Shown: in pieces, positions 46,900 to 58,987 of the stretch
Layout: every line of letters starts with the position of its first letter
Position numbering within the stretch: position 1 is the stretch's first letter
The notes under the pieces: generated by a model
What the model saw: only the letters and a program-made list of their open reading frames with translations
What the model was told of the DNA's origin: nothing
The model's database searches: none
Position numbers and translations under genes: made by a program
Assembly: GCA_015057035.1 (NCBI GenBank)
Contig: SVFC01000001.1
Span: 1-64,000 of the forward strand
Length of the DNA: 64,000 nucleotides
From: Lachnospiraceae bacterium
GTDB lineage: Bacteria; Bacillota; Clostridia; Lachnospirales; Lachnospiraceae
Direction: 5' to 3'

Positions 46900-48284
46900 T
46901 GGACGTTTTAAAGAGAGTACCAGTACGTGAGCAGGAACCAGCCGCTCGTGCTAAGAATTTTGAAGAAGTATGTTATGGCTACAACGAAGAAGAAGCAGTA
47001 GCAGAGGCTTCCCGTTGTTTGAATTGTAAAAATGCCCTTTGTATGCAGGGCTGTCCTGTATCAATCAATATTCCAGGATTCATTGAACAGGTAAAAAATC
47101 GCAATTTCGAAGAAGCATATCAGATTATTTCTCAGTCTAGCGCGCTTCCAGCAGTTTGTGGACGTGTTTGCCCACAGGAAAGCCAGTGTGAAGGAAAATG
47201 TATCCGCGGCTTCAAGGGAGATCCAGTTGCTATCGGTAAACTGGAACGCTTTGTAGCTGACTGGGCTAGAAAAAATGGAATCAAACCGAAAAAAGCAGAG
47301 AAAATGAATGGTCATAAAGTTGCTGTCATCGGTTCAGGCCCTGCAGGACTTACCTGTGCAGGCGACCTTGCAAAACTTGGCTATGAAGTAACTATTTTTG
47401 AAGCATTACATGCTGCAGGTGGTGTACTTGTATATGGCATTCCAGAATTCCGTCTTCCAAAAGACGAAGTTGTTGCTGCAGAAGTTGCTAACGTAGAAGC
47501 ACTTGGTGTTAAGATTGAAACTAACGTTGTTATTGGTAAATCTATCACTATCGACGAATTAATCGAAGAAGAAGGATTCGAAGCTGTATTTATCGGCTCT
47601 GGTGCTGGACTTCCTAAGTTTATGGGAATCCCAGGAGAACAGGCAAATGGTGTATTCTCAGCCAATGAATACTTAACCAGAAATAACCTTATGAAAGCTT
47701 TCAAAGAAGGCTATGAAACACCAATCAGCCGTGGCAACAAGGTGGTAGTCGTTGGTGGTGGTAACGTAGCTATGGACGCTGCTCGTACAGCACTTCGTCT
47801 TGGCGCAGAAACACACATCGTTTACCGTCGTAGTGAAGCAGAACTTCCTGCACGAGTAGAAGAAGTACACCATGCAAAAGAAGAAGGTGTGATTTTTGAC
47901 CTTCTCCAGAATCCAACGGAAATCCTTGTAGATGAAAAGGGCTGGGTAAAAGGCATCAAGATTATCAAAATGGAACTTGGCGAACCAGATGCATCAGGTC
48001 GTCGTCGCCCAGTAGAAGTACCAGGTTCAGAATACGAAATCGAATGTGATACTGTAATCATGTCTCTTGGAACTTCACCAAACCCATTGATTTCTTCTAC
48101 CACAAAAGGCTTAGACACCAATAAATGGCAGTGTATCGTTGCAGAAGAAGCAACTGGCGCAACCTCCAAAGAAGGTGTTTACGCTGGTGGTGATGCTGTA
48201 ACTGGTGCTGCAACCGTAATTCTTGCTATGGGAGCTGGCAAAGCCGCTGCCGCTGGAATTCATGATTATCTTACTAATAAATAA
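46899..48284 (+). CDS. nfnB: FAD/Fe-S NADPH oxidoreductase subunit (NfnB/GltD-like)
   Basis: The 461-residue subunit has an N-terminal double [4Fe-4S] domain (CLNCKNALCMQGCPVSINIP and VCGRVCPQESQCEGKC), an FAD Rossmann fold (AVIGSGPAGLTCAGDLAKLG), the NADPH site VVVGGGNVAMDAARTA and the late GVYAGGDAVTGAATVI. It is the GltD-like flavoprotein; no GltB-type large subunit is near, and the partner upstream points to NfnAB rather than glutamate synthase. Its last five codons and the stop lie in the left arm of a giant inverted repeat. Confidence 0.87.
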   Translation: MDVLKRVPVREQEPAARAKNFEEVCYGYNEEEAVAEASRCLNCKNALCMQGCPVSINIPGFIEQVKNRNFEEAYQIISQSSALPAVCGRVCPQESQCEGKCIRGFKGDPVAIGKLERFVADWARKNGIKPKKAEKMNGHKVAVIGSGPAGLTCAGDLAKLGYEVTIFEALHAAGGVLVYGIPEFRLPKDEVVAAEVANVEALGVKIETNVVIGKSITIDELIEEEGFEAVFIGSGAGLPKFMGIPGEQANGVFSANEYLTRNNLMKAFKEGYETPISRGNKVVVVGGGNVAMDAARTALRLGAETHIVYRRSEAELPARVEEVHHAKEEGVIFDLLQNPTEILVDEKGWVKGIKIIKMELGEPDASGRRRPVEVPGSEYEIECDTVIMSLGTSPNPLISSTTKGLDTNKWQCIVAEEATGATSKEGVYAGGDAVTGAATVILAMGAGKAAAAGIHDYLTNK

Positions 48285-48541
48285 AATATAGGTTTTCTAT
48301 ATTTCATGAAATGAGCCTTGTTATATGTTGAGCTCGTACACGCTTTCGCTCTTCATCGTAACGTAACGGATACTAAGTATCCATCATAAGCAGTTTATCT
48401 AATTGCACATAAATGTGCATTATCTAAACCGCTTATAATGTATACTAAGTACCGACGACGATGAAAGGTACGATTCAACATATAACAAGGCTCATTTCTT
48501 CATACATATTAAGTCTTTAATTCATATTTATTAGTAAGATA
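48267..48541. repeat. Giant imperfect inverted repeat beginning inside the nfnB end
   Basis: Exact arms are 48267-48283 with 48525-48541 (17 bp) and 48308-48331 with 48475-48498 (24 bp). Between them both halves stay alignable with gaps: ATACTAAGTAT/ATACTAAGTA near 48371 and 48431, CATAAGC/GCTTATAATG, and a centre TTGCACAT/ATGTGCA near 48401-48419. The outer left arm is coding (TATCTTACTAATAAATA). No open frame and no transposase are seen. Confidence 0.82.
48330..48356 (+). repeat. 27-bp dispersed repeat, copy 1
   Basis: The stretch GAGCTCGTACACGCTTTCGC and the next 7 nt recur at 48584-48610 with two C-to-T changes. Copy 1 lies in the left half of the giant inverted repeat. Confidence 0.8.
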
Positions 48542-48583
48542 CTCAATAAATTTGCAACGGCAGTTGGTTGGGAGGGCAGTTCT

Positions 48584-48610
48584 GAGCTCGTACACGCTTT
48601 TGCTCTTTAT
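48584..48610 (+). repeat. 27-bp dispersed repeat, copy 2
   Basis: Direct repeat of 48330-48356 with two changes, outside the giant inverted repeat. It ends where the GGGTGT hairpins begin. Confidence 0.8.
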
Positions 48611-48612
48611 GC

Positions 48613-48857
48613 GGGTGTGGAGAAATGATTTTTTCTCCACACCCATAGATTTTAAGAAATAAAGGGGAAATCTATAGATTTTGGAATGAAGCGGGTGTGA
48701 GATAAAGAAAATTCACCTGCACCCGCTGGTTTCGGAGAAACCAGGGTGCAGACAGAAAAATGGGATAGTACACCCGTTTTTGCTTAAAATAAATAAAAAA
48801 TGCAAAGTAAATCTTATAATTGTCGGGTGTATACGAAACAAAGAGCGTATACACCCG
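48613..48857. repeat. Cluster of hairpins built on GGGTGT/ACACCC
   Basis: GGGTGTGGAGA (48613-48623) pairs with TCTCCACACCC (48634-48644). CTGGTTT pairs with GAAACCAG near 48726-48745, next to GCGGGTG and CACCCGC copies. CGGGTGTATACG (48824-48835) pairs with CGTATACACCCG (48846-48857). No gene is seen. Confidence 0.75.
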
Positions 48858-48904
48858 CGTAATTTCTCAGCGCATCTTCGTACGGGTGTATTTCTCTCAT
48901 GTTT

Positions 48905-49092
48905 CCCCATACACCCGCGCAGACCATTTCAAGCCCTAAAATCCCCATACACCCGCGCAGGCCATTTCAAGCCCTACAATCCCCATACACCCGCGCAGGC
49001 CATTTCAAGCCCCAAAATCTCCATACACCCGCGCAGGCGCTTCCTCCAAGCACCCCATACACCCCAAATACCCCATACACCCACGTAACTAT
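48905..49092. repeat. 38-bp minisatellite with CCATACACCCGCG core
   Basis: Three near-identical 38-bp units start at 48905, 48943 and 48981 (CCCCATACACCCGCGCAG then a CATTTCAAGCCC half). A fourth at 49019 diverges after the core, and two more short CCCCATACACCC copies follow. The core is the reverse complement of the GGGTGTAT in the hairpins upstream. Frames through it are proline-rich and look like chance. Confidence 0.85.
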
Positions 49093-49095
49093 CCC

Positions 49096-49124
49096 TTGCA
49101 ACACCATCCAAAATAAGGTATAAT
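49096..49124 (+). promoter_or_regulatory. Promoter of the four-gene unknown operon
   Basis: TTGCAA at 49096-49101 and TATAAT at 49119-49124, spacing 17 bp, directly after the minisatellite and 53 nt before the GTG start. Confidence 0.75.
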
Positions 49125-49177
49125 TTCTATATCTATTTTAGTACGTACGATAAGACGTTAGAAGTGAGGAAAAATAA

Positions 49178-52100
49178 GTGCGTAAGCGAATTAAGCAACT
49201 GGCCAGAGGCAAATTCGAATACGCGAAACCACAGCTTCAGATTTCTGAGGAAGAGATTGCATTTACGGTGATCGAAGGGGAAGATTACGAGGGGAGTTTT
49301 ACAATTTCTAGTGAAAATCCTGTCAAGCTGCGCGGGCTTGTGTATTCCACCAATCCAAGAATGGAATGTCTGACACCTCAATTTGAAGGGGAAACGGTTC
49401 GGATTCGGTATCAATTTCATAGCTTTGGTTTAAGCGAAGGACAGACCGAGAAGGGTGATTTTGTCATTATTTGTGAACAGAATGAAATCAGCCTTTCTTT
49501 TTGTGCGTCCGTTTCCAAGAAATATGCCGATACTTCTATTGGCACAGTGAAGAATCTCTATGATTTTTCACAACTTGCCAAGTCGAACTGGAGCGAAGCG
49601 TTCCAGTTGTTCTATCACAAGGATTTTTCCAATATTATCAAAGAAAACGAGATTAAGGAAGGCATGATTTACCGTGGAATCATGGGAGCGAAGCCTTCGA
49701 ATCAGAATATGGAAGAATTCTTAATCGGAATTCGTAAAAAAGATAAGGTATCCTTCTCTCTAAGCAAAAAATCCTTAGAATTCTACAATTTAAGAGAAAC
49801 CATCAAGGAGTCCATCGAGATTAAGAAGGATAACTGGGGTTACATTGAGATTAATGCCACTTGTGAGGAAGGCTTTGTACGAATTGAGAAGAAAAAGATT
49901 CGTTCAGAGGATTTCATTGGAAGTGTTTATAGTTTTGAATTTTTTGTTGATGTGAATCAATTGCATGCAGGTAAGAATTTTGCACGGATTACTTTGTCCA
50001 GCGTTTATGAGACTCAGACCATTGAGATTGTAGCCAGTGTGTCAGACAGAGCCCAGAAGGATGAGCCAATGACACTTCAGAAGAAGGAATGTCAGGCTGG
50101 CATTATGGAACTGTATCAGGCATACCGTCTGAAACGTATCGTGACAGGTGTTTGGGCAAATGAAACCATCGAGATATTGAATCATCTTCATGCTTTAGAA
50201 CCAGAAGAACCAATGCATGTGCTGATGAAGGCACAGTGTTTGATTATCAATCGTCAGCGTCAGGAAGCAGAGTGGATTCTGGACGAGTTCAAGCGTGAAT
50301 GGTTAGATAGACGTTCTCCAATCTGGGCATATTTCTTGTACATTATGACTCTGATTGAACGTGAGCCAACCTACGTGGACAAGCTGACCAAGGAGATTGA
50401 AGGCATTTTCCACGAGAATCCTGATTCTGTATTGTGTTTCTGGATACTGACCTTCTTACAGGAACAGTATTTTAATAATAATGCCCTGAAACTGAAATCC
50501 ATTGGATATTGGGTAATGAAGGGATGCTCTTCTCCATATTTGTACCTGGAGGCATATTATCTGATTTGGCAGGATCCATACTTGTTAACCAAATTGGATG
50601 AGTTTGAAGTGCGCGTGCTTCGTTGGGCGGTGCGTCATCGTGCCATCACCAAGGACATCGCCATTCAGATATTCCAGATTATGGAGACAGAGAAAGGCTT
50701 TAAGCCAGTATTATATGATTTGCTTTGTGCAGCTTATGAAGCAAATCCGAAACCGGAGTATGTGGGAGTGATTTGTAGTTATCTGATTAAAGGTCAGCAG
50801 TACGACCACAAATACCATCACTGGTTTGAAACAGGAATTGAGTTAGAACTGCGTATTACCAGCCTCTATGAGGCATATCTGATGTCTATGGATGAGCGTC
50901 GCATTGCGCCAGTGCCTAAGATTATCCAGATGTATTTCCAATACGACAGTGGACTTCCATATAAGAAAATGGCGGTGCTGTACAACAACATCATTGCTTC
51001 GAAAACTGTAAATCCTGAGGTTTACCAGAGATATTGCCGTGCTATGGGCAAATTTGCCATGGAACAAATCATTGCAGGTCATATGGATGACAATCTGGCC
51101 GTTGTCTATGATGATATGTTGGATTTGGGCGTGATTAATGGGGAAATTGCTCGTTCCCTTTCTCACATTATCTTCACCCACAAGGTTGTGGTTTTCGATG
51201 AAAAAATGGTAAGAGCCATTATCTATCAGAGACAGTTAAAAGACCCACAGATTGTTCCAATTGTGGATAATACAGCATATTTCCAATTGTATTCCAAGGA
51301 ATATGTCATTGTCTTTGAGGATGAAAAGGGACAGCGTTTTGCGGGAAGTATTCCACACCAGCTTCAGAGCCTTATGGATAGCCATAAATATCTGGAGAAA
51401 TGTATGGAATTGGCTCCACAGCAGCTTCCATATCTGCTTTCGTACTTTGATACCCGTCAGAATTATCTGACCTTTGCACCAGAGGACAAAGAACATTTCC
51501 GAATCCTGATGTTCTCTGAGGCGATTAGTGCAGAGTACAAATCCAAGATGTTGCCTGAGATTTTACGTTTCTATCAGGTACATGCTTATGATGGCATGAT
51601 AGAAGAGTATCTGACCAGAGCAGACTATAGCAGATTAGAAGCGAACACCAGACGTTTTGCTATGGAACTTCTTGTGGAGAATCACTTGTTTGCGATTGCT
51701 TATGAAAAAGTAATGGAATACGGTATCGACCAAATCGGTTCTGCAGCCAAGGTGGCTCTGGCCAGCCACATGATTACAAGAACTGAATACGAAGAGGATG
51801 AATTTTTGATTCGTTTGGCAGCGACTGCATTCCGTGCAAAAAAATACAATGACAAGATTCTGTCATATCTATGCCAGCATTTTAGCGGACCGTCCAGAGA
51901 TATGTTACGTCTTTGGTGTGCCGCGCAGGACTATGAGATTGAACTGTTTGATTTATCTGAACGACTTTTGGTTCAGACTATGTATGCAGAAGACCTCATT
52001 CATGAAACAATGCCAGTGTTTGCCTACTATTACGAGGCAGGTGGCAAGGATTTTGTGACTCTGGCATATATTACAGAATGTGCGCATCGTTACTTTGTAG

Positions 52101-52720
52101 ATAACGAGACCATTGATGATGATATTTTTGAACTGATTCAGGCGAGATACATATATAATCTGGAATTGAATGATGCCTGCAAACTGGCATTACTTCGTCG
52201 ATATTCCGAATTAGTCAATCTGACAGACAAACAGCTCACCATAGAAGATGAGCTTCTGGCGGAATACACCAGACGTAATATGCATTTTGCATTCTACAAA
52301 CGTCTCAATCAGGAACTGATATTGAAATACCATCTGTATGACAAGGTATTTTTGGAATATCGCACCAATCCTCACAGCCACGTCATGTTGCATTACAGCC
52401 GTGATGAGGATGGGGAAAACTTTATCAAAGAAGATATGTTAGACGTTTACGATGGTATTTTTGTAAAATCCTTCGTTATGTTCTTTGGAGAAGCAGTGCA
52501 GTACTACATCAGTGAAGAGCATAACAATGAGATTCAAGTTACAGAAAGCAGCCGTATCGTAAACAATGACGTATACAACAAGAACGACGTAAGTCGATAT
52601 AACCTGCTCAATCAGATGTTGATTTCCAACACCTTACAGGAAGAGCAGGAATTGTACCGTGCTATGAAGCAGTATGCAGGTTATGAGGATGTAACACGGA
52701 ACATCTTTAAGCTATTATAG
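49178..52720 (+). CDS. Large DUF5717-like protein, first gene of the unknown operon
   Basis: The 1180-residue protein has no signal peptide or TM. The N-terminal ~290 residues look like two beta-sandwich domains (ISEEEIAFTVIEGEDYEGSF, then VSFSLSKKSLEFYN), with KNLYDFSQLAKSNWSEAFQLFY between them. The other ~850 residues are helical and TPR/HEAT-like (IMELYQAYRLKRIVTGVWAN, RQEAEWILDEF). I recall it as DUF5717, seen mainly in Lachnospiraceae, with no function assigned. The start is GTG with GTGAGGA upstream. The next gene follows after 12 nt. A scaffold role is inferred from shape only. Confidence 0.75.
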   Translation: MRKRIKQLARGKFEYAKPQLQISEEEIAFTVIEGEDYEGSFTISSENPVKLRGLVYSTNPRMECLTPQFEGETVRIRYQFHSFGLSEGQTEKGDFVIICEQNEISLSFCASVSKKYADTSIGTVKNLYDFSQLAKSNWSEAFQLFYHKDFSNIIKENEIKEGMIYRGIMGAKPSNQNMEEFLIGIRKKDKVSFSLSKKSLEFYNLRETIKESIEIKKDNWGYIEINATCEEGFVRIEKKKIRSEDFIGSVYSFEFFVDVNQLHAGKNFARITLSSVYETQTIEIVASVSDRAQKDEPMTLQKKECQAGIMELYQAYRLKRIVTGVWANETIEILNHLHALEPEEPMHVLMKAQCLIINRQRQEAEWILDEFKREWLDRRSPIWAYFLYIMTLIEREPTYVDKLTKEIEGIFHENPDSVLCFWILTFLQEQYFNNNALKLKSIGYWVMKGCSSPYLYLEAYYLIWQDPYLLTKLDEFEVRVLRWAVRHRAITKDIAIQIFQIMETEKGFKPVLYDLLCAAYEANPKPEYVGVICSYLIKGQQYDHKYHHWFETGIELELRITSLYEAYLMSMDERRIAPVPKIIQMYFQYDSGLPYKKMAVLYNNIIASKTVNPEVYQRYCRAMGKFAMEQIIAGHMDDNLAVVYDDMLDLGVINGEIARSLSHIIFTHKVVVFDEKMVRAIIYQRQLKDPQIVPIVDNTAYFQLYSKEYVIVFEDEKGQRFAGSIPHQLQSLMDSHKYLEKCMELAPQQLPYLLSYFDTRQNYLTFAPEDKEHFRILMFSEAISAEYKSKMLPEILRFYQVHAYDGMIEEYLTRADYSRLEANTRRFAMELLVENHLFAIAYEKVMEYGIDQIGSAAKVALASHMITRTEYEEDEFLIRLAATAFRAKKYNDKILSYLCQHFSGPSRDMLRLWCAAQDYEIELFDLSERLLVQTMYAEDLIHETMPVFAYYYEAGGKDFVTLAYITECAHRYFVDNETIDDDIFELIQARYIYNLELNDACKLALLRRYSELVNLTDKQLTIEDELLAEYTRRNMHFAFYKRLNQELILKYHLYDKVFLEYRTNPHSHVMLHYSRDEDGENFIKEDMLDVYDGIFVKSFVMFFGEAVQYYISEEHNNEIQVTESSRIVNNDVYNKNDVSRYNLLNQMLISNTLQEEQELYRAMKQYAGYEDVTRNIFKLL

Positions 52721-52732
52721 AAGGGCACCCAC

Positions 52733-53965
52733 ATGGAAAGAAGAGAGAAAGTCTATGTCGGAATCGATATTAACGACCGATATGCGATGATTAGCTATTA
52801 CAAACTGAATATGGATGAACCGGAAACAGTCAGCACCATCGCAGGCAGTGAATATTATCAGATTCCAACCCTGCTTGCCAAGAGAAAAGCCCTTGGACAG
52901 TGGTACTACGGAGACGAAGCCAGAAAAATGGCCAAGAATTCCGAAGTGATTTGCGTGGACTCCCTCTTAAAGCGTGCGGTCAATGGGGAAAATATCCGAA
53001 TTGAGGATGAAACCTATGAAGCATGGAAGCTTCTTGCTATGTTTTTAAAGAAGGTAATGGACCTTCCAATGAAACTGGGCAACGCAGTTTCTTGTGACCG
53101 ATTGATTCTGTCCGTAGAGAGATTATCCAGAAGCAATATGGAGGTTTTCTGGAAGATTGCTCCAACCTTAGGGCTTTTGCCAGAACAGTTTATGGTGATT
53201 GATCACAAGGAGAGTTTCTATTACTTTGCGTTGAGTCAGCCAGAAAACTTATGGATTCATGATGTATATCTGTTTGAAAACGATGGTAAAAATGTTCACT
53301 ACTACGGTTTAAAACGAAACACCAGAACCACACCACAGGTGGTTTCCATTAAGGAAAGTATTAAGACGCCTCTGGATGACAGAAAGGACGAGGAATTCCT
53401 GCACATCTTGCAGAAAGCCTTTGAAAATCAGATTATCACTACGGTTTACCTGGTAGGAGAAGGGTTTGAAGGCGGATGGATGAAGGATTCCCTTACATAC
53501 ATCTGTCGTGGCAGACGAGCTTTTATGGGCAACAACCTGTATTCTAAGGGGGCCTGCTATGCAGGTTTTGTTAGAGATAACCCAGAAAACTGGAACTGTA
53601 TCTATATGGGTGAAAACGAGATGAAGTTTAACTTAAGTCTCAAGATTCGTGACAGAGGAGAATTATCCTTCTACACCTTGATTAGTGCGGGAAAGAACTG
53701 GTTTGAGACCAAAGGCGAATGTGAAGTGATTTTATCTGGTTCTGGCGAAATTGACTTCTGGAAACAGTTGCCAAATAGCCGTGAAGCAGTAATCGAAACC
53801 TTGGAACTTACAGATCTGCCAAGCAGACCAGACCGAACCACAAGACTTCGTATTACTGCAACACCGGTATCGGATGAGAAAATCGAAGTGAAGATTCGAG
53901 ATCTGGGCTTTGGTGAAATCTATAGAAGTACAGATAAGGTCTGGAGATACACCATGACCATGTAA
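52733..53965 (+). CDS. Degenerate Hsp70/actin-fold protein (DUF5716-like)
   Basis: The 410-residue protein follows the Hsp70 nucleotide-binding domain plan: VYVGIDINDRYAMISYY (phosphate-1 strand), YQIPTLLAKRKALGQWYYGDEARK (compare IPS...GEEA in Hsp70), RLILSVERLSRSNMEVFWKI, FMVIDHKESFYYFAL (compare NEPTAAA) and VYLVGEGFEGGWMKDSL then GNNLYSKGACYAG (adenosine loop and end). The phosphate loops DxGT and DxGGG are replaced by DINDR and FENDG. It may bind nucleotide poorly or act as a pseudo-chaperone. A ~90-residue beta domain ends it. I recall this as DUF5716. Confidence 0.72.
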   Translation: MERREKVYVGIDINDRYAMISYYKLNMDEPETVSTIAGSEYYQIPTLLAKRKALGQWYYGDEARKMAKNSEVICVDSLLKRAVNGENIRIEDETYEAWKLLAMFLKKVMDLPMKLGNAVSCDRLILSVERLSRSNMEVFWKIAPTLGLLPEQFMVIDHKESFYYFALSQPENLWIHDVYLFENDGKNVHYYGLKRNTRTTPQVVSIKESIKTPLDDRKDEEFLHILQKAFENQIITTVYLVGEGFEGGWMKDSLTYICRGRRAFMGNNLYSKGACYAGFVRDNPENWNCIYMGENEMKFNLSLKIRDRGELSFYTLISAGKNWFETKGECEVILSGSGEIDFWKQLPNSREAVIETLELTDLPSRPDRTTRLRITATPVSDEKIEVKIRDLGFGEIYRSTDKVWRYTMTM

Positions 53966-53977
53966 TGGAGATATAGA

Positions 53978-54817
53978 ATGGGCGAAATACTATTTTGTAA
54001 CCAGCCAATTGCAGCCTTGCCTTATTACATTGAAGGCATATCCTGGAATGTCTATTCTCTGGAAGAATTGTGTTATTACATCGAGAATAACACCTATCTT
54101 TTGGAAAAAGACTTTATGACCGAGGAACTGTGCACTTGGGTTGGAAAAGAAGTGAAAAATGAAAAATTAGCAGAACGCCTTCGGGATATTTTGAGGATGG
54201 ATGGACGCTTGTCAGAGTTTGTGCTGGCGATTTTGGTGGAATGTGGCTATAGTTCACGGGAAACCATCAAGGAAGTGGTACGTCTGATTCGTGAGATGGA
54301 GGAGAAGTCGGACTTCGAATGCAACAAGGTTCGTGCGGACCGCCTCATGGAGAAGGAAAAATACCTAAGCAGTATTTATGAGTACAAGAATCTGCTGGAG
54401 GCAGATGATGCAGGCGAACAGCCACCACAGCTGATAGGCAATATCTGGCACAATCTTGGAACTGCCTATGCGAGACTGTTCTTATTCCAGGAAGCCATTC
54501 ATTGTTATGAGAGAGCGTATTACCTGAATAACAACGAAGAGTCCTTAAAAGAAGCGCTGATGGCTTATCGTTGCCTAAAGGACGAGGATGGTTTCTATGA
54601 TATGGCAAAAGCAAATGGCCTGTCAGAGGAAGAGATTACTCGTTTTAAAACAGAACTCTCTGTGGCTAGTAGAAGTGATGCAACAAAAGAGTTTGAAGAG
54701 AAACTAGAAGCCATTGCCATGATGAATGAGAGTGGACAGAAAAACGAGTATCATAAAGCCATTTCCAGTATTATTTTCAATTGGAAAGAAGAATATAGAA
54801 GAATTTGTAGGATTTAA
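53978..54817 (+). CDS. TPR-like helical protein of the unknown operon
   Basis: A 279-residue soluble protein. The middle has TPR-type helix pairs (about 140-215; KEKYLSSIYEYKNLLEADDA, IWHNLGTAYARLFLFQEAIHCYERAYYLNN), a clear tetratricopeptide pair. The N-terminal part (ILFCNQPIAALPYYIEGISW) and the C-terminal helical end are unassigned. TPR proteins often bind Hsp70 tails or act as scaffolds, which fits the preceding gene. It starts 12 nt after that gene and ends 2 nt before the next. Confidence 0.75.
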   Translation: MGEILFCNQPIAALPYYIEGISWNVYSLEELCYYIENNTYLLEKDFMTEELCTWVGKEVKNEKLAERLRDILRMDGRLSEFVLAILVECGYSSRETIKEVVRLIREMEEKSDFECNKVRADRLMEKEKYLSSIYEYKNLLEADDAGEQPPQLIGNIWHNLGTAYARLFLFQEAIHCYERAYYLNNNEESLKEALMAYRCLKDEDGFYDMAKANGLSEEEITRFKTELSVASRSDATKEFEEKLEAIAMMNESGQKNEYHKAISSIIFNWKEEYRRICRI

Positions 54818-54819
54818 GT

Positions 54820-55983
54820 ATGTCATTTTTAGATTTGTTTAGAAGAAAAAAGAATAAAAATATCGAAGTGGCAGAGGAAACCATTCAGCCAGTAATGCTA
54901 ACAGACCAGAAGGCCATTAATCATTATGTGGTGGAACTTTGTGAGCAGATGATTGACATCTCCAAGGGGATGGAAGAGGTTCGTGAGGAATACGAGCAGG
55001 TAACATCATATTTTAATGATATTACCATTGTGGAAGGTCTGGAGGGACAGCAGAAGGACACCTTGGTGGATGTGGCTACCAGCGTGACCAAACTTACCAA
55101 AGCCAGAAATGATTATCTGAATGCGGACCATAGAATCACAGATGAGATGTTTCATCTGTTAGATGATAACGAAGCAGAAATGCCGGGAATCATTAAGAGA
55201 TTGAAGGCTAATGAAGAATATCTGGATGCCATTAAGCGTGATATGAATCGTCTGTCAGGAGAAAAGATTGAGTGGAGTGTCCTTCGTCAGGAACGTTCCA
55301 CAGAGCAAAAAACTCTACGTCAGATGTCTTTTACCATGCTGTATGTATTTGGTGCATCAGCCATTGTGGTTGCGGCAGTGTCATTGATGCTGAAATGGGA
55401 TTTGTTACCTCTTCTGGTTGTAGCCCTTCTGGCAGTAATCGCAGGGTCATACATTGTGCTTCGTATGCAGGATTGTGCCAAGGAGATTAAAAAGTGCGAT
55501 GCAAATCTGAATCGTGCCATTGCTTTGGAAAATCGCGTGAAAATCAAATTCGTCAATATCAAAAATGCTGTGGATTATACCTGCGAACGATTCCATGTCA
55601 ACAATTCTATGGAATTAACCTATAATTATGAACAGTACATTGAAGCATGCAAGGAACGAGAGATTTTCAAGCAGACCAATGAAGATTTGGAATACTTTAA
55701 CGGACGTCTGGTACGTCTGCTAGGGGCAATGAACTTGTATGATCCAAAAGTATGGTTAAACTATGCAGATGCCATTGTTGATCCTAGAGAAATGGTAGAA
55801 GTAAAACATAACTTATTTGCACGTAGACAAAAGCTTCGTGAACGAATTGAATATAACTTATCCGCCATTGAAGACATGAAAAAAGAAGTAGAGAAATACA
55901 TCGATAGTCTTGGAGAAAAACAAGAACAGGTTCGAACCATTATGGCAAGAGTAGATGAGATAAACAAAGGAAACACACCGTAA
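54820..55983 (+). CDS. Coiled-coil membrane protein of the unknown operon
   Basis: The 387-residue protein has a basic N terminus (FRRKKNKN), a long helical region (30-160), two adjacent TM helices (about 170-190 and 194-212) separated by a short loop KWDLLP, and a second long helical region (215-380) ending in a coiled coil. Both soluble parts are thus cytoplasmic, forming an arch anchored by a hairpin. I recognise no family. It would be the membrane anchor of the complex suggested by this operon. Confidence 0.75.
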   Translation: MSFLDLFRRKKNKNIEVAEETIQPVMLTDQKAINHYVVELCEQMIDISKGMEEVREEYEQVTSYFNDITIVEGLEGQQKDTLVDVATSVTKLTKARNDYLNADHRITDEMFHLLDDNEAEMPGIIKRLKANEEYLDAIKRDMNRLSGEKIEWSVLRQERSTEQKTLRQMSFTMLYVFGASAIVVAAVSLMLKWDLLPLLVVALLAVIAGSYIVLRMQDCAKEIKKCDANLNRAIALENRVKIKFVNIKNAVDYTCERFHVNNSMELTYNYEQYIEACKEREIFKQTNEDLEYFNGRLVRLLGAMNLYDPKVWLNYADAIVDPREMVEVKHNLFARRQKLRERIEYNLSAIEDMKKEVEKYIDSLGEKQEQVRTIMARVDEINKGNTP

Positions 55984-56000
55984 CAGGTGTGTTTTTCTTA
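55971..56000 (+). terminator. Terminator overlapping the operon's last stop codon
   Basis: AAACACACC (55971-55979) pairs with GGTGTGTTT (55986-55994), then T residues. The TAA stop at 55981-55983 is in the loop. Confidence 0.85.
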
Positions 56001-56002
56001 TG

Positions 56003-56030
56003 CACCCATACTGTTCTAAAGCATAATATA
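56003..56030 (+). promoter_or_regulatory. Possible sporulation-sigma promoter of cotJ
   Basis: CATAATATA at 56022-56030 fits the CATANNNTA -10 pattern of SigK (SigE has a similar CATANNNT). CACC at 56003-56006 could be the short SigK -35 with a 15-bp gap, 1 nt shorter than usual. No sigma-A boxes are seen. Confidence 0.45.
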
Positions 56031-56060
56031 TAGTGTATTAAGTATGTAGGAGAAATATGT

Positions 56061-56330
56061 ATGGACAACAGAAATTGCACACAATGTTCTCGCGATAACC
56101 GTACCAATGAGACATGCGGACGTGAGAATTATACACGTGACAATTTCCCACGCAACAACTGCTCTGATAGTGACTGTGACCGCTGGGAAATTGCCATGGG
56201 ATATGTTCCTTGGCAGAACTTAAGAGATGTATATGAACCAGCACAGGCGCTTCGCGCTGGAACCCTTTTCCCTGAACTGGAAAAACCATTTATGGCCCGG
56301 GATATGGCAAGAAAGGGGGCTAGACGATGA
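56061..56330 (+). CDS. cotJA: Spore coat protein CotJA
   Basis: An 89-residue protein. The C-terminal half matches CotJA (AMGYVPWQNLRDVYEPAQAL, AGTLFPELEKPF); the N-terminal 40 residues are rich in Asn, Cys, Arg and Asp and poorly conserved, as usual. It acts in the spore coat with CotJB and CotJC. It overlaps cotJB by 4 nt. Confidence 0.92.
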   Translation: MDNRNCTQCSRDNRTNETCGRENYTRDNFPRNNCSDSDCDRWEIAMGYVPWQNLRDVYEPAQALRAGTLFPELEKPFMARDMARKGARR

Positions 56331-56575
56331 ATAGAATGCAGATGTTAGAATGGGTACAGATGTTATGCTTTTGCGTAGTGGATATGCAGCTCTATTTAGA
56401 TACACATCCAGATGATGAAGAAGCGTTTTGCTATTTTAAGGAAGCCGTAGAAATGTATGAAAAGGCAAAAATGAAATTTGAAGAAAATTATGGCCCATTG
56501 GTTGCCACTTCAGCAGCAATGCATGGACAGTGGACCTGGGCAGATATGCCATTGCCTTGGGAAGGAGTAAGATAG
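56327..56575 (+). CDS. cotJB: Spore coat protein CotJB
   Basis: An 82-residue protein with the CotJB pattern: QMLCFCVVDMQLYLDTHPDD, then EEAFCYFKEAVEMYEKAKMK and a YGPL segment ending WTWADMPLPWEG. It sits between cotJA (ATGA overlap) and cotJC (1-nt gap), the invariant cotJ order. Confidence 0.93.
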   Translation: MNRMQMLEWVQMLCFCVVDMQLYLDTHPDDEEAFCYFKEAVEMYEKAKMKFEENYGPLVATSAAMHGQWTWADMPLPWEGVR

Positions 56576-56576
56576 T

Positions 56577-57173
56577 ATGTGGGTTTATGAAAGAAAATTA
56601 CAGTATCCGATTAACATTACCAGACCAAATCCTGCCATGGCAAAATTTATCATGAGCCAGTATGGTGGACCAGACGGCGAAATTGCAGCTTCCATGCGTT
56701 ATTTGTCTCAGCGTTATTCTATGGATAACCGCAGAGTTGCAGGACTCTTAACGGACATTGGTACAGAAGAACTTGCGCATATGGAAATGATTGCTACCAT
56801 CGTTCGTCAGTTGACAAAAGGCTGTAGTGCAGAGGAATTAAAAGAATCTGGACTTGGAGCTTACTATATTGATCATACTGGTGCAATCTGGCCTCAGGCG
56901 GCTGGCGGAATTCCATTCAACGCATGTGAATTCCAGAGTAAGGGCGACCCAATCACCGACCTGTTTGAAGACCTTGCTGCAGAACAGAAGGCGCGTACCA
57001 CCTACGACAACATTCTTCGTCTTGTAAAAGACCCAGAAGTTGCCGACCCAATTAAGTTCCTTCGACAGCGTGAAGTGACCCACTTCCAGCGTTTTGGTGA
57101 AGCGCTTCGTATGGTTCAGGAGCAGCTTGACTGCAAGAACTATTACGCATTCAACCCATCCTTTGATAAGTAG
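56577..57173 (+). CDS. cotJC: Manganese-catalase-like spore coat protein CotJC
   Basis: The 198-residue protein is a ferritin-like four-helix dimanganese catalase homologue. Metal ligands are visible in GGPDGEIAASMRYLSQRY, GTEELAHMEMI (Glu and His), FEDLAAEQKARTTYD and REVTHFQRFGEA (Glu and His). It would help to protect the spore from peroxide. It ends the cotJ operon before a hairpin. Confidence 0.94.
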   Translation: MWVYERKLQYPINITRPNPAMAKFIMSQYGGPDGEIAASMRYLSQRYSMDNRRVAGLLTDIGTEELAHMEMIATIVRQLTKGCSAEELKESGLGAYYIDHTGAIWPQAAGGIPFNACEFQSKGDPITDLFEDLAAEQKARTTYDNILRLVKDPEVADPIKFLRQREVTHFQRFGEALRMVQEQLDCKNYYAFNPSFDK

Positions 57174-57185
57174 TTTTTTCTATAA

Positions 57186-57224
57186 GCTGTCTCCCGTGCA
57201 AAAGTTACGAGAGACAGCATTTTT
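57186..57224 (+). terminator. Terminator of cotJABC
   Basis: GCTGTCTC (57186-57193) pairs with GAGACAGC (57211-57218), followed by TTTTT. Confidence 0.8.
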
Positions 57225-57262
57225 GTTATAGTTACAATAGCCTTTTGATATAGCTTGTTTTA

Positions 57263-57291
57263 TTGATTTCACACAATTCATTTGGTATAAT
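57263..57291 (+). promoter_or_regulatory. Promoter of the arylpyruvate operon
   Basis: TTGATT at 57263-57268 and TATAAT at 57286-57291, spacing 17 bp, 61 nt before the first start codon. Confidence 0.7.
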
Positions 57292-57352
57292 TTTCATATT
57301 CGCAAAGTTTTGCTTTTGCGAGTGTAAGGAATAGGGAAAATGAGGAAAGTTT

Positions 57353-58987
57353 ATGGTAATTACGGATTTTTTAGAGAGAAATGCAAGGGAATATCCAAAT
57401 GATATCTGTCTGGTGGAGATTAACCCAGAGATTAAGGAAGACAGAAGGGTAACCTGGAAAGAATATGAATTGATTGAGCCAAGTCCTAAGACAAGCTACC
57501 GCCGTGAAATCACCTGGGGTGTGTTCAACGAAAAGGCAAATCGTTTTGCCAATCTTTTGATTCAAAGAGGCATCAAAAAAGGAGATAAGGTGGCAATTCT
57601 GATGATGAACGGCTTGGAATGGCTTCCTATCTATTTTGGCGTGTTGAAAACAGGCGCATTGGCGGTTCCACTTAATTTCCGTTATTCAGCAGAGGAGATA
57701 GAATACTGTGTTAATCTTGCAGAAGCAGACATTCTGGTGTTTAGCAATCCATTTATCGGACGTGTGGAAGAAATCGCGGACAGAATTAGCAAAGGTCGTC
57801 TTTTGATTTATGTAGGCGAGGGCTGTCCAGGTTTTGCAGATGATTATAATTCCCTGTCTGCCAACTGTTCCAGTCAGTCTCCAATGGTGCCACTGACGGA
57901 CGAAGATTACGCAGCAATTTATTTTTCATCTGGTACCACAGGTTTTCCAAAGGCAATTTTACATAAACACAGAAGTCTCGTGCATTCCTGCATGGTAGAG
58001 CAGAATCATCACGGACAGAAAAAGGACGATGTCTTTTTATGCATTCCACCTTTGTATCATACGGGTGCGAAAATGCATTGGTTTGGAAGTCTTTTGTCAG
58101 GAAGCAAAGCAGTGCTCTTAAAGGGCACCAAGCCAGAATTTATTTTAGAAGCTGTATCAAAGGAAAAATGTACGATTGTGTGGCTCTTAGTTCCATGGGC
58201 GCAGGATATTTTGGAAGCCATTGAAAGTGGACAGGTCAACTTGGAGGATTACGACCTGAAACAGTGGAGACTGATGCACATCGGTGCGCAGCCAGTACCA
58301 CAGAGTTTGATTAAGAAATGGAAGTCTATTTTCCCAGAACACGATTATGATACCAACTACGGATTGTCAGAGTCTATCGGACCAGGCTGTGTACATCTTG
58401 GTATGGAGAATATCCACAAAGTTGGAGCTATCGGAAAAGCAGGCTACGGCTGGGAAGTAAAAATCGTAGATGAAAAACACAACACCGTAGAAAAAGGACA
58501 GGTTGGAGAACTGGCGGTCAAAGGCCCTGGTGTTATGACCTGTTACTATAGAGATGAAAAGGCCACGAACGAAGTGTTAGCAGATGGATGGCTTTTCACA
58601 GGAGATATGGCGCAGGAAGACGAAGATGGATTCATTTTCCTGGTTGACCGTAAGAAAGATGTCATTATCAGTGGTGGTGAGAACCTCTATCCAGTACAGA
58701 TTGAGGATTTCATCCGTACGAATGATAAAGTTCACGATGTAGCAGTAATAGGTCTTCCAGATAAGCGTCTTGGAGAAATTGCGGCTGCGATTATCGAGTT
58801 AAAAGATGGTGTGACCATGACAAAAGAAGAGATTGACGAGCATTGTTTAGGAATGCCACGTTATAAACGTCCACATGAAGTTATTTTTGCAGATATTCCA
58901 CGAAATCCAACAGGCAAGATTGAAAAGCCTAAGCTTCGTGAGAAATATGGTGCAAACCGCCTGATTGCGGAACAGAATATGGGCTAA
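57353..58987 (+). CDS. Class I adenylate-forming enzyme (acyl/aryl-CoA synthetase)
   Basis: A 544-residue ANL-superfamily enzyme that activates a carboxylic acid with ATP and passes it to CoA. Visible motifs: YFSSGTTGFPKAILHKH (A3), TNYGLSESIGPG (A5), LADGWLFTGDMAQEDEDGFI (A7), RKKDVIISGGENLYP (A8) and the catalytic Lys in PRNPTGKIEKPKL (A10). Since it heads an operon with iorAB and a phenylacetate-CoA ligase, an arylacetate or related acid is a likely substrate; this is inferred from neighbours. A charged insert near residues 35-50 is unusual. The next gene starts 19 nt downstream. Confidence 0.88.
   Translation: MVITDFLERNAREYPNDICLVEINPEIKEDRRVTWKEYELIEPSPKTSYRREITWGVFNEKANRFANLLIQRGIKKGDKVAILMMNGLEWLPIYFGVLKTGALAVPLNFRYSAEEIEYCVNLAEADILVFSNPFIGRVEEIADRISKGRLLIYVGEGCPGFADDYNSLSANCSSQSPMVPLTDEDYAAIYFSSGTTGFPKAILHKHRSLVHSCMVEQNHHGQKKDDVFLCIPPLYHTGAKMHWFGSLLSGSKAVLLKGTKPEFILEAVSKEKCTIVWLLVPWAQDILEAIESGQVNLEDYDLKQWRLMHIGAQPVPQSLIKKWKSIFPEHDYDTNYGLSESIGPGCVHLGMENIHKVGAIGKAGYGWEVKIVDEKHNTVEKGQVGELAVKGPGVMTCYYRDEKATNEVLADGWLFTGDMAQEDEDGFIFLVDRKKDVIISGGENLYPVQIEDFIRTNDKVHDVAVIGLPDKRLGEIAAAIIELKDGVTMTKEEIDEHCLGMPRYKRPHEVIFADIPRNPTGKIEKPKLREKYGANRLIAEQNMG

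Follow-up and report, generated by a model that had tools for sequence, protein, structure and literature searches.

A four-gene operon of the Lachnospiraceae that may encode a membrane-tethered complex around a non-hydrolysing Hsp70 relative

Ssz1, a partner in the ribosome-associated complex (RAC), can bind ATP but not hydrolyse it, carries a full substrate-binding beta domain without a lid, resides in a fixed complex and requires no classical exchange factor, according to the sections of PMC7083937 drawn on here. Around GAP1-N2 domains, gene neighbourhoods have been described that hold an HSP70, a GrpE, a second HSP70 without a peptide-binding domain, and FNIII proteins fused to DnaJ or to tetratricopeptide repeats (TPR); they occur in several phyla and are associated with a multicellular habit, as the relevant part of the source has it (PMC7159879). 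Here we describe an operon of four genes, P1 to P4, in a 64,000-nucleotide stretch from a Lachnospiraceae bacterium (GenBank assembly GCA_015057035.1, contig SVFC01000001.1, positions 1 to 64,000 of the forward strand), the whole of which we call the window. This operon is termed the short form, and the Lachnospiraceae the window's family; the long form is an operon of other families that encodes several Hsp70s. We favour, with moderate confidence, the explanation that P1 to P4 make up one membrane-tethered complex, what is left, independent of ATP, of a dedicated multi-Hsp70 machine still encoded by other families. The architecture and ancestry are well supported, and the partnership of the four products is inferred. 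Searches of open-licence PubMed Central by title and abstract found no description of the function of DUF5716 or DUF5717, or of this operon.

A preliminary description of the locus, made from the letters alone, had proposed four tightly spaced genes on one strand, and open reading frame (ORF) calling in the window bears this out, with gaps of 12, 12 and 2 nt on the + strand:

49178 to 52720, + strand: P1, DUF5717 protein and probable scaffold, 1180 amino acids (aa), GTG start (Pfam, AlphaFold2).
52733 to 53965, + strand: P2, DUF5716 predicted pseudo-Hsp70, 410 aa, with a nucleotide domain that lacks the catalytic residues and lobe IIB, plus a substrate-binding beta domain, without a lid (Pfam, alignments, AlphaFold2, Foldseek).
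53978 to 54817, + strand: P3, TPR protein, 279 aa, likely orthologue of the long-operon TPR protein and fused to P2 in five genera (Pfam, profile search).
54820 to 55983, + strand: P4, coiled coil with a hairpin of two transmembrane (TM) segments, 387 aa (hydropathy, profile search).

Pfam places P1 in DUF5717_N (1.2e-289) and DUF5717 (3.4e-98) and P2 in DUF5716_C (1.2e-105), the families to which both had been provisionally assigned and for which, as had been stated, literature searches turned up no published function. NCBIfam gave only matches far below cut-off. We read DUF5716 as a pseudo-Hsp70 and DUF5717 as probably its scaffold.

The linkage of P1 to P4 is far beyond chance. All 57 distinct short loci have P1-P2-P3(-P4) in the same order and on the same strand, with none out of order, in keeping with the single operon proposed earlier, and 148 of their 153 intergenic gaps are 60 nt or less. 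Forty-four loci comprise all four genes, seven P1-P2-P3, five P1 with a fused P2-P3, and one P1-P2-P4 (L015), in the gap of which P3 is present. Loci were de-duplicated by sequence, the short ones by that of P2, and only loci with a called P2 or Hsp70-C were counted (57 short, 44 long); L113 and L041, whose P2 escaped calling through overlap (that of L113 is present), and long pieces without Hsp70-C, such as L053 and L121, stand outside these numbers. Of the genera sampled in the window's family, 145 of 150 have DUF5716, as do 122 of 125 good-quality genomes, compared with 0 of 14 control genomes, and in that survey it was single copy in all but two genomes, one of which has the gene in two pieces. 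Of 59 genomes in the genus, 54 gave a P2 match, the five without being 58-83% complete, and within the genus P2 identity to the window tracked the DnaK bit score (Spearman 0.53, 44 genomes), as expected for vertical descent. In a sample of the class, DUF5716 exceeded the cut-off in 16 of 391 genomes, all in the window's family and including the genome of the window itself. A 17th match, to DUF5716_C and under cut-off, in a class genome outside the family (G412) was rejected, its locus (L064) being without any operon gene.

Searches with P2 also returned weak matches, in pairs, to frames of about 500-550 aa from other families of the order. There the operon begins with P1, often divided between a beta protein of ~390 aa and a helical one of ~900 aa, and continues with Hsp70-A, a long protein with GrpE at its end, Hsp70-B (the counterpart of P2), Hsp70-C, Hsp70-D fused to a vWA domain, and a TPR protein (the counterpart of P3), with a two-TM coiled coil (the counterpart of P4) at the end of some loci only. 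Pfam recognises HSP70 in A, C and D, GrpE over cut-off, VWA, TPR, and DUF5717 on the split P1; Hsp70-A and Hsp70-C are lidless. No order violation was seen in 44 distinct long loci, 19 of which have all of A, GrpE, B, C, D and TPR. The other 25 are incomplete, many ending at a contig end, and in six (L132, L143, L144, L145, L146, L148) there is enough flanking sequence to establish that the operon has been split or shortened; three of these six metagenome-assembled genomes (MAGs) are labelled Defluviitaleaceae. DTTGSM or DTTSSM, presumably the vWA metal-site motif, is present in 32 of 32 Hsp70-D proteins over 650 aa, a count that may include duplicates. The GrpE domain occupies residues 510-642 of 645 in the L130 protein, and the GrpE protein of L048 is only 279 aa long. 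In ten long loci most genes overlap or are separated by short gaps, though one gap measures 512 nt. ORF starts were trimmed in L123 (A1) and in L061 and L062 (A3). Carriers among the matches listed are MAGs of Candidatus Epulonipiscium, Defluviitaleaceae, Eubacteriaceae and Eubacteriales, of unclassified Clostridia, Clostridiales and Bacillota, and Clostridia bacterium MS499-75, which is not marked as a MAG. Defluviitaleaceae and Candidatus Epulonipiscium fall in the NCBI order Lachnospirales; NCBI puts Epulonipiscium in the Lachnospiraceae, whereas the families used here keep it apart from that of the window. A phylum search with Hsp70-D gave mainly DnaK-like matches (295 of 299 genomes) and was dropped, its loci being kept as DnaK controls. 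As an Hsp70 operon that carries both a pseudo-Hsp70 and a GrpE of its own, the long form is undescribed. The suggestion that the system is particular to the Lachnospiraceae accordingly needs dividing: the four-gene form looks restricted in this way, but the same genes occur in the longer operon of other families.

The Hsp70 layout first noticed in P2 is supported by several comparisons. Its AlphaFold2 model (pLDDT 91.1) has an Hsp70-like nucleotide domain followed by a beta domain; the best Foldseek match is DnaK (4ani, E 2.3e-20, TMq 0.48), and Ssz1 structures (6sr6 and 5mb9) are among the matches. A profile of P2 together with Hsp70-B finds DnaK at 1.7e-14 over positions 9-400, spanning both domains. 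The Hsp70-B of L052 matches both HSP70 (1.8e-14) and DUF5716_C (2.2e-33), as does the Hsp70-C of the same locus, so that these proteins bridge the two families; the Hsp70-B of L048 matches DUF5716_C at 3.4e-74. By sequence and predicted structure, P2 belongs to the Hsp70 superfamily by descent, with homologous nucleotide and substrate-binding beta domains.

The active site of P2, in turn, looks dead. We followed the equivalents of D8, K70, E171 and T199, which we take to be the E. coli DnaK numbering as anchored by motifs in the genome's own DnaK. K70, E171 and T199 are intact in every Hsp70-A (13/13), Hsp70-C (15/15) and Hsp70-D (11/11), whereas K70 is found in 0/17 Hsp70-B and 0/21 P2, E171 in 2/17 and 0/21, and T199 in 0/17 and 1/21. 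Another 22 rows of Hsp70-B have neither K70 nor T199, with E171 in one, and nine further P2 rows lack all three. D8 is retained in 17/17 Hsp70-B and 20/21 P2. In these counts L001 is omitted as a copy of the window, the DnaK controls are intact in 9 of 11 with the non-DnaK rows L074 and L075 included, and the 39 Hsp70-B rows represent ~33 distinct ones, at least six named loci duplicating other records. The spacing between the phosphate-2 and adenosine motifs is 35-52 residues in 30 of 30 P2 rows, compared with 122 in DnaK, 151-154 in Hsp70-A, 118-120 in Hsp70-C, 127 in Hsp70-D and 106-139 in Hsp70-B (39 rows). The block missing from P2 corresponds to residues ~203-285 of the own DnaK (~85 residues), presumably E. 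coli ~223-305, or subdomain IIB, and a short loop stands in its place:

53357 to 53383, + strand: P2, approximately residues 209-217, loop in place of the missing lobe IIB (alignment and secondary structure; position approximate).

The helical-lid region is practically empty in the 21 P2 proteins aligned. Judged by K70, E171 and T199, P2 is not predicted to be a catalytically competent Hsp70; it reads as a non-hydrolysing, lidless one. Hsp70-A, by its motif spacing (151-154 as against 122 in DnaK), has ~30 extra residues in the IIB region, near the expected docking place of GrpE.

P2 forms a single clade (99) in a maximum-likelihood tree of 86 Hsp70s; the Hsp70-B of G062 joins it first (98) and that of L126 next (97), both from long-operon genomes. 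A, C, D and DnaK each form one clade. This was a quick tree that excluded L074 and L075 (not DnaK); it has long branches, and the tool warns of false joins. Hsp70-B has a mean identity of 25% to Hsp70-C as against 17-18% to A, D and DnaK, which suggests that B arose from its neighbour C. Where 7 kb or more could be inspected, valS lies 3' of the operon, in the same orientation, in 7 of 30 short loci and 3 of 27 long ones (the 27 may include duplicates), and it is also found in three long loci with less room, making altogether five distinct long records from three families (L119 = L130). It does not adjoin the operon in the window. Occurring in both forms, this adjacency suggests that the operon occupies one chromosomal position in the genomes concerned. 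These observations are most simply explained by reduction in the window's family. The opposite course, in which the short operon is ancestral and other families later inserted Hsp70-A, GrpE, Hsp70-C and Hsp70-D, gains from the fact that an unrooted comparison alone does not fix the direction; we consider it quite improbable, since Hsp70-B is a decayed Hsp70 most like its neighbour Hsp70-C, P2 nests with Hsp70-B beside long-operon genomes, and several families would need the same genes inserted at the same places. In G062 the Hsp70-D and TPR frames are each interrupted (L048 5340-7384 and 4205-5231), through assembly error or decay in progress; in our search G062 is the sole genome of its family, with no further near relatives.

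As far as the genomes tested indicate, the ATP-driven part is missing from the window's family. One GrpE over cut-off was found in each of eight genomes of that family (the window's own, four with the short operon read, and three known for DUF5716 only), compared with two in seven of seven long-operon genomes; one of the family's genomes, G959, has a further GrpE match under cut-off. The second GrpE of long-operon genomes sits in the operon, that of G847 being judged by its place 1.5 kb from Hsp70-C. Hsp70-C occurs in 65 of 196 genomes of the order, and none of the 65 comes from the window's family; the sample included at least 20 genomes of that family. At strict E-value none of 391 genomes of the class and none of 259 of the phylum gave Hsp70-C, samples that include no known carrier and hence give no proof of absence. 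In the window's own genome (85% complete), the HSP70 matches are DnaK (in two pieces), a 374-aa frame on contig C2, and two frames that look MreB-like by eye. The C2 frame (G000:C2:81091-81732; L103 7059-8183) starts inside the nucleotide domain, ends hydrophobic and is possibly truncated; its scores against Hsp70-A, C and D are low and similar. Lobe IIB is the lobe that GrpE levers open. The shared distribution of the two absences suggests that the second GrpE and lobe IIB were lost together, from which we predict that P2 works without nucleotide exchange.

P1 would provide the scaffold. Its AlphaFold2 model (pLDDT 87.7, pTM 0.61) agrees with the beta plus helical-repeat protein expected from the sequence and divides as follows:

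49235 to 50035, + strand: P1 residues 20-286, two N-terminal beta-sandwich domains, PapD/ASH/HYDIN-like (AlphaFold2 strands, Foldseek; place inferred from the strands).
50063 to 51160, + strand: P1 residues 296-661, first TPR-like helical solenoid (AlphaFold2, Foldseek).
51170 to 51370, + strand: P1 residues 665-731, beta domain between the solenoids (AlphaFold2).
51380 to 52342, + strand: P1 residues 735-1055, second helical solenoid (AlphaFold2).
52343 to 52561, + strand: P1 residues 1056-1128, C-terminal beta domain (AlphaFold2).

Foldseek matches to P1 are axonemal or ciliary central-apparatus chains, a HYDIN PapD-like domain, and the TPR scaffolds Ski3, CTR9, IFT-A and Naa15. TM-scores by P1 length are low (at most 0.16 among the best 50 listed), the single good match being the HYDIN PapD-like domain 2e6j (TMt 0.71, root-mean-square deviation 3.5), and a P1 profile found no relative of solved structure at E<=1. 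An arm of the Chlamydomonas central apparatus houses an HSP70A, in the portion of PMC9113940 used here; we regard this as a parallel and claim no homology. The axonemal matches of P1, together with the ATPase fold common to Hsp70 and actin, are what speaks for a cytoskeleton-like or polymerising actin-fold machine, as the preliminary description had also entertained. We hold it to be highly improbable: P2 is closest to DnaK, has a substrate-binding beta domain, and lacks the catalytic residues and IIB, and no other ATPase was recognised among the products of the four-gene operon. A cytoskeletal role has no direct support, P2 being an Hsp70 relative and not a polymerising actin, although the beta domains of P1 resemble those of ciliary scaffolds.

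P3 was taken from the outset for a TPR protein, probably rightly: its best Pfam model scores 25.6 bits against a cut-off of 25.7, its long-operon counterpart lies well above the cut-offs, and the short-form P3 profile picks up that counterpart at 51-86 bits where intact and at 77 for one piece. The two also have a common N-terminal motif outside the repeats. In five genera (L209-L213), chosen for long frames from the 150-genus DUF5716 survey, P2 and P3 are a single protein, with P2 extending to ~387-426 and P3 starting from ~426-453, which supports a physical P2-P3 pair; the five fusions may derive from a single event. P4 matches no Pfam family above cut-off, and its profile has no solved relative, giving against solved structures only weak coiled-coil and other matches (best 1.3e-4, to keratin). 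The short-form P4 profile picks up the long-operon coiled coil at 101-150 bits. Hydropathy reveals hydrophobic segments at residues 173-191 and 195-213, and the basic residues that flank the hairpin on both outer sides indicate that both soluble parts are probably inside, as had been suggested:

55336 to 55458, + strand: P4 transmembrane hairpin, residues 173-191 and 195-213 (hydropathy).

In L062 (6164-8413), P4 has an extra charged, apparently coiled-coil tail of ~360 residues.

These features fit the chaperone-like, membrane-bound reading first put forward, and we propose the following arrangement. The full machine of other families would consist of P1, three ATPase-competent Hsp70s, one ATPase-dead Hsp70, the long GrpE, the TPR protein and sometimes the anchor. 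In the short form, P1 would act as a large beta/TPR-like scaffold, P2 as a pseudo-Hsp70, P3 as a TPR adaptor and P4 as a two-TM coiled-coil anchor. P2 would have ceased to cycle with ATP, and its substrate-binding beta domain may constitutively hold a segment of a partner or a client, like the lidless Ssz1 in RAC. P1 and P3 would form its platform, P4 would hold the complex at the membrane's inner face, and the whole might serve as a static holding or docking station. We propose a static, membrane-tethered complex because Ssz1 works in a fixed complex and requires no classical exchange factor, and P2 goes further in having lost IIB. A bolder generalisation, offered only tentatively, is that the window's family runs a core membrane structure on an Hsp70 without catalysis, lid, IIB, exchange factor or sister Hsp70s, which would be, as far as our searches go, the first whole multi-Hsp70 machine reduced to an ATP-free scaffold, while in relatives the full machine, equipped with its own GrpE and vWA-Hsp70, would still drive an undescribed process.

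A chaperone that actively folds clients has also to be considered, in which P2 would recruit the housekeeping DnaK, DnaJ and GrpE to membrane clients through P1 and P3, in the way that Ssz1-Zuo1 acts for Ssb. Pairing an atypical Hsp70 with a TPR protein is common among co-chaperones, Ssz1 sets a precedent for such recruitment, and a single DnaK and a single GrpE score above cut-off in the window's own genome. The component scans returned no J-domain family, and P1 to P4 have no HPD motif, partners elsewhere in the genome lying outside this search; in the components of four long loci the HPD tripeptide occurs within Hsp70-C only. Neither the window operon nor its relatives show a CIRCE box: the best site 5' of the window operon scores 12/18 where shuffles reach 13, and the best in 52 rows of relatives (which may include duplicates) scores 13/18, the shuffle level, while the control at the genome's own dnaK locus scores 18/18. 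The operon is thus not visibly in the HrcA regulon. We regard DnaK recruitment as a live rival, though less likely than the remnant.

Several observations weigh against an ATP-independent, membrane-tethered remnant, or against parts of that proposal. Twelve short loci are without P4, and in ten of these (five unfused, five with the P2-P3 fusion) no recognisable P4 appears across 5-9 kb of downstream sequence; P4 is therefore not a strict core part, just as its counterpart ends only some long operons. HSP70 of Pfam does not match P2 even at E<=1, nor does it match the L048 Hsp70-B, and a profile of P2 only reaches DnaK at 1.4e-4 and over the N-terminus only. The identity of P2 to Hsp70-B (19%) is close to that of Hsp70-B to DnaK (18%), and long branches may join falsely, so that the nesting of P2 in Hsp70-B rests also on gene order. 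The conserved D8 in 20 of 21 P2 proteins makes some nucleotide binding by P2 possible. Because Hsp70-B is dead beside GrpE and active Hsp70s, loss of ATPase activity would be older than the reduction. Finally, the correlation of P2 with DnaK within the genus is only moderate, and adjacency to valS is a minority pattern.

The signals flanking the operon are less distinct than its coding content. The promoter first proposed exists as a site, and the terminator as a stem followed by T's, in a shorter interval than the 55971-56000 originally given:

49096 to 49124, + strand: candidate sigma-70-like promoter, TTGCAA-17-TATAAT, 10/12 (motif scan; weak).
55971 to 55994, + strand: terminator-like symmetric stem with T's after it; shares sequence with the stop codon of P4.

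Promoter-like sites in 48000-57500 (23 found) are no commoner than expected from shuffles (23.6), which makes the promoter candidate weak evidence, and the terminator scan lists the stem on the - strand only. Immediately 5' of the promoter candidate is a 38-bp tandem repeat (48904-49038, 3.6 copies, 94% match); its 15-base core is present there in four copies and, allowing two mismatches, nowhere else in the window. Just 3' of the operon, at 56061-57173, lie three small genes that we take to resemble the CotJA/CotJB/CotJC spore-coat cluster.

The similar parts of the GAP1-N2 neighbourhoods, as far as the cited portion describes them (Kaur et al. 2020, PMC7159879), raise the question of a conflict or defence system of the kind proposed there, in which the complex would sense invasion and trigger an effector. 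PADLOC models match three of four long-operon proteins scanned: Hsp70-C and Hsp70-D of L052 (5787-9496) match the candidate-system model PDC-M61B (3.9e-11 and 2e-7), and the GrpE protein weakly matches ZorA3 (0.0014). The PDC-M61B matches fall in the nucleotide domain and may reflect plain Hsp70 similarity, and none of the four window proteins matches PADLOC at E<=1. Scans of the components gave no GAP1, GTPase or effector domain, and scans of three flanking genes no GAP1-N2 or GTPase, wider neighbourhoods lying outside the scan. A gene that is nearly always single copy and present in 145 of 150 genera is, moreover, unlike most defence systems, and we regard a defence role as improbable.

On the explanation that we favour, a static membrane-tethered remnant, two families of unknown function, present in almost all sampled genera of a gut-bacterial family, can be tested as a complex. 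The gene-order survey and profile searches that had been suggested as a test kept the genes together and assigned them to no described complex. The long operon represents a natural experiment on the division of labour among Hsp70s, and the joint absence of a second GrpE and of lobe IIB in one lineage a natural test of the exchange mechanism.

Compared with known systems, P2 would have in common with Ssz1 that it is a non-hydrolysing, lidless Hsp70 with a beta domain. Ssz1 binds ATP, and loss of IIB, a feature of P2, is not mentioned for it in the sections of PMC7083937 drawn on. The partner of Ssz1 is zuotin, a J-protein located at the ribosome; the components scanned here gave no J-domain, and the window operon encodes a membrane protein. 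Like the DnaK-GrpE system, the long operon has Hsp70s with intact catalytic residues and a GrpE with a conserved C-terminal domain; it differs in its three active Hsp70s and one dead one, in the lidless A and C and the vWA-fused D, in the long N-terminal extension of its GrpE, and in that no J-protein was found, and its ATP part was not found in the window's family. The GAP1-N2 systems likewise gather an Hsp70, GrpE and beta-domain/TPR proteins in one neighbourhood, as in the long operon. They contain GAP1/GTPase genes, none of which was found in the operon components scanned, and they are spread over several phyla in the portion of the source cited, in contrast to the window operon, which is near-universal and single copy within one family.

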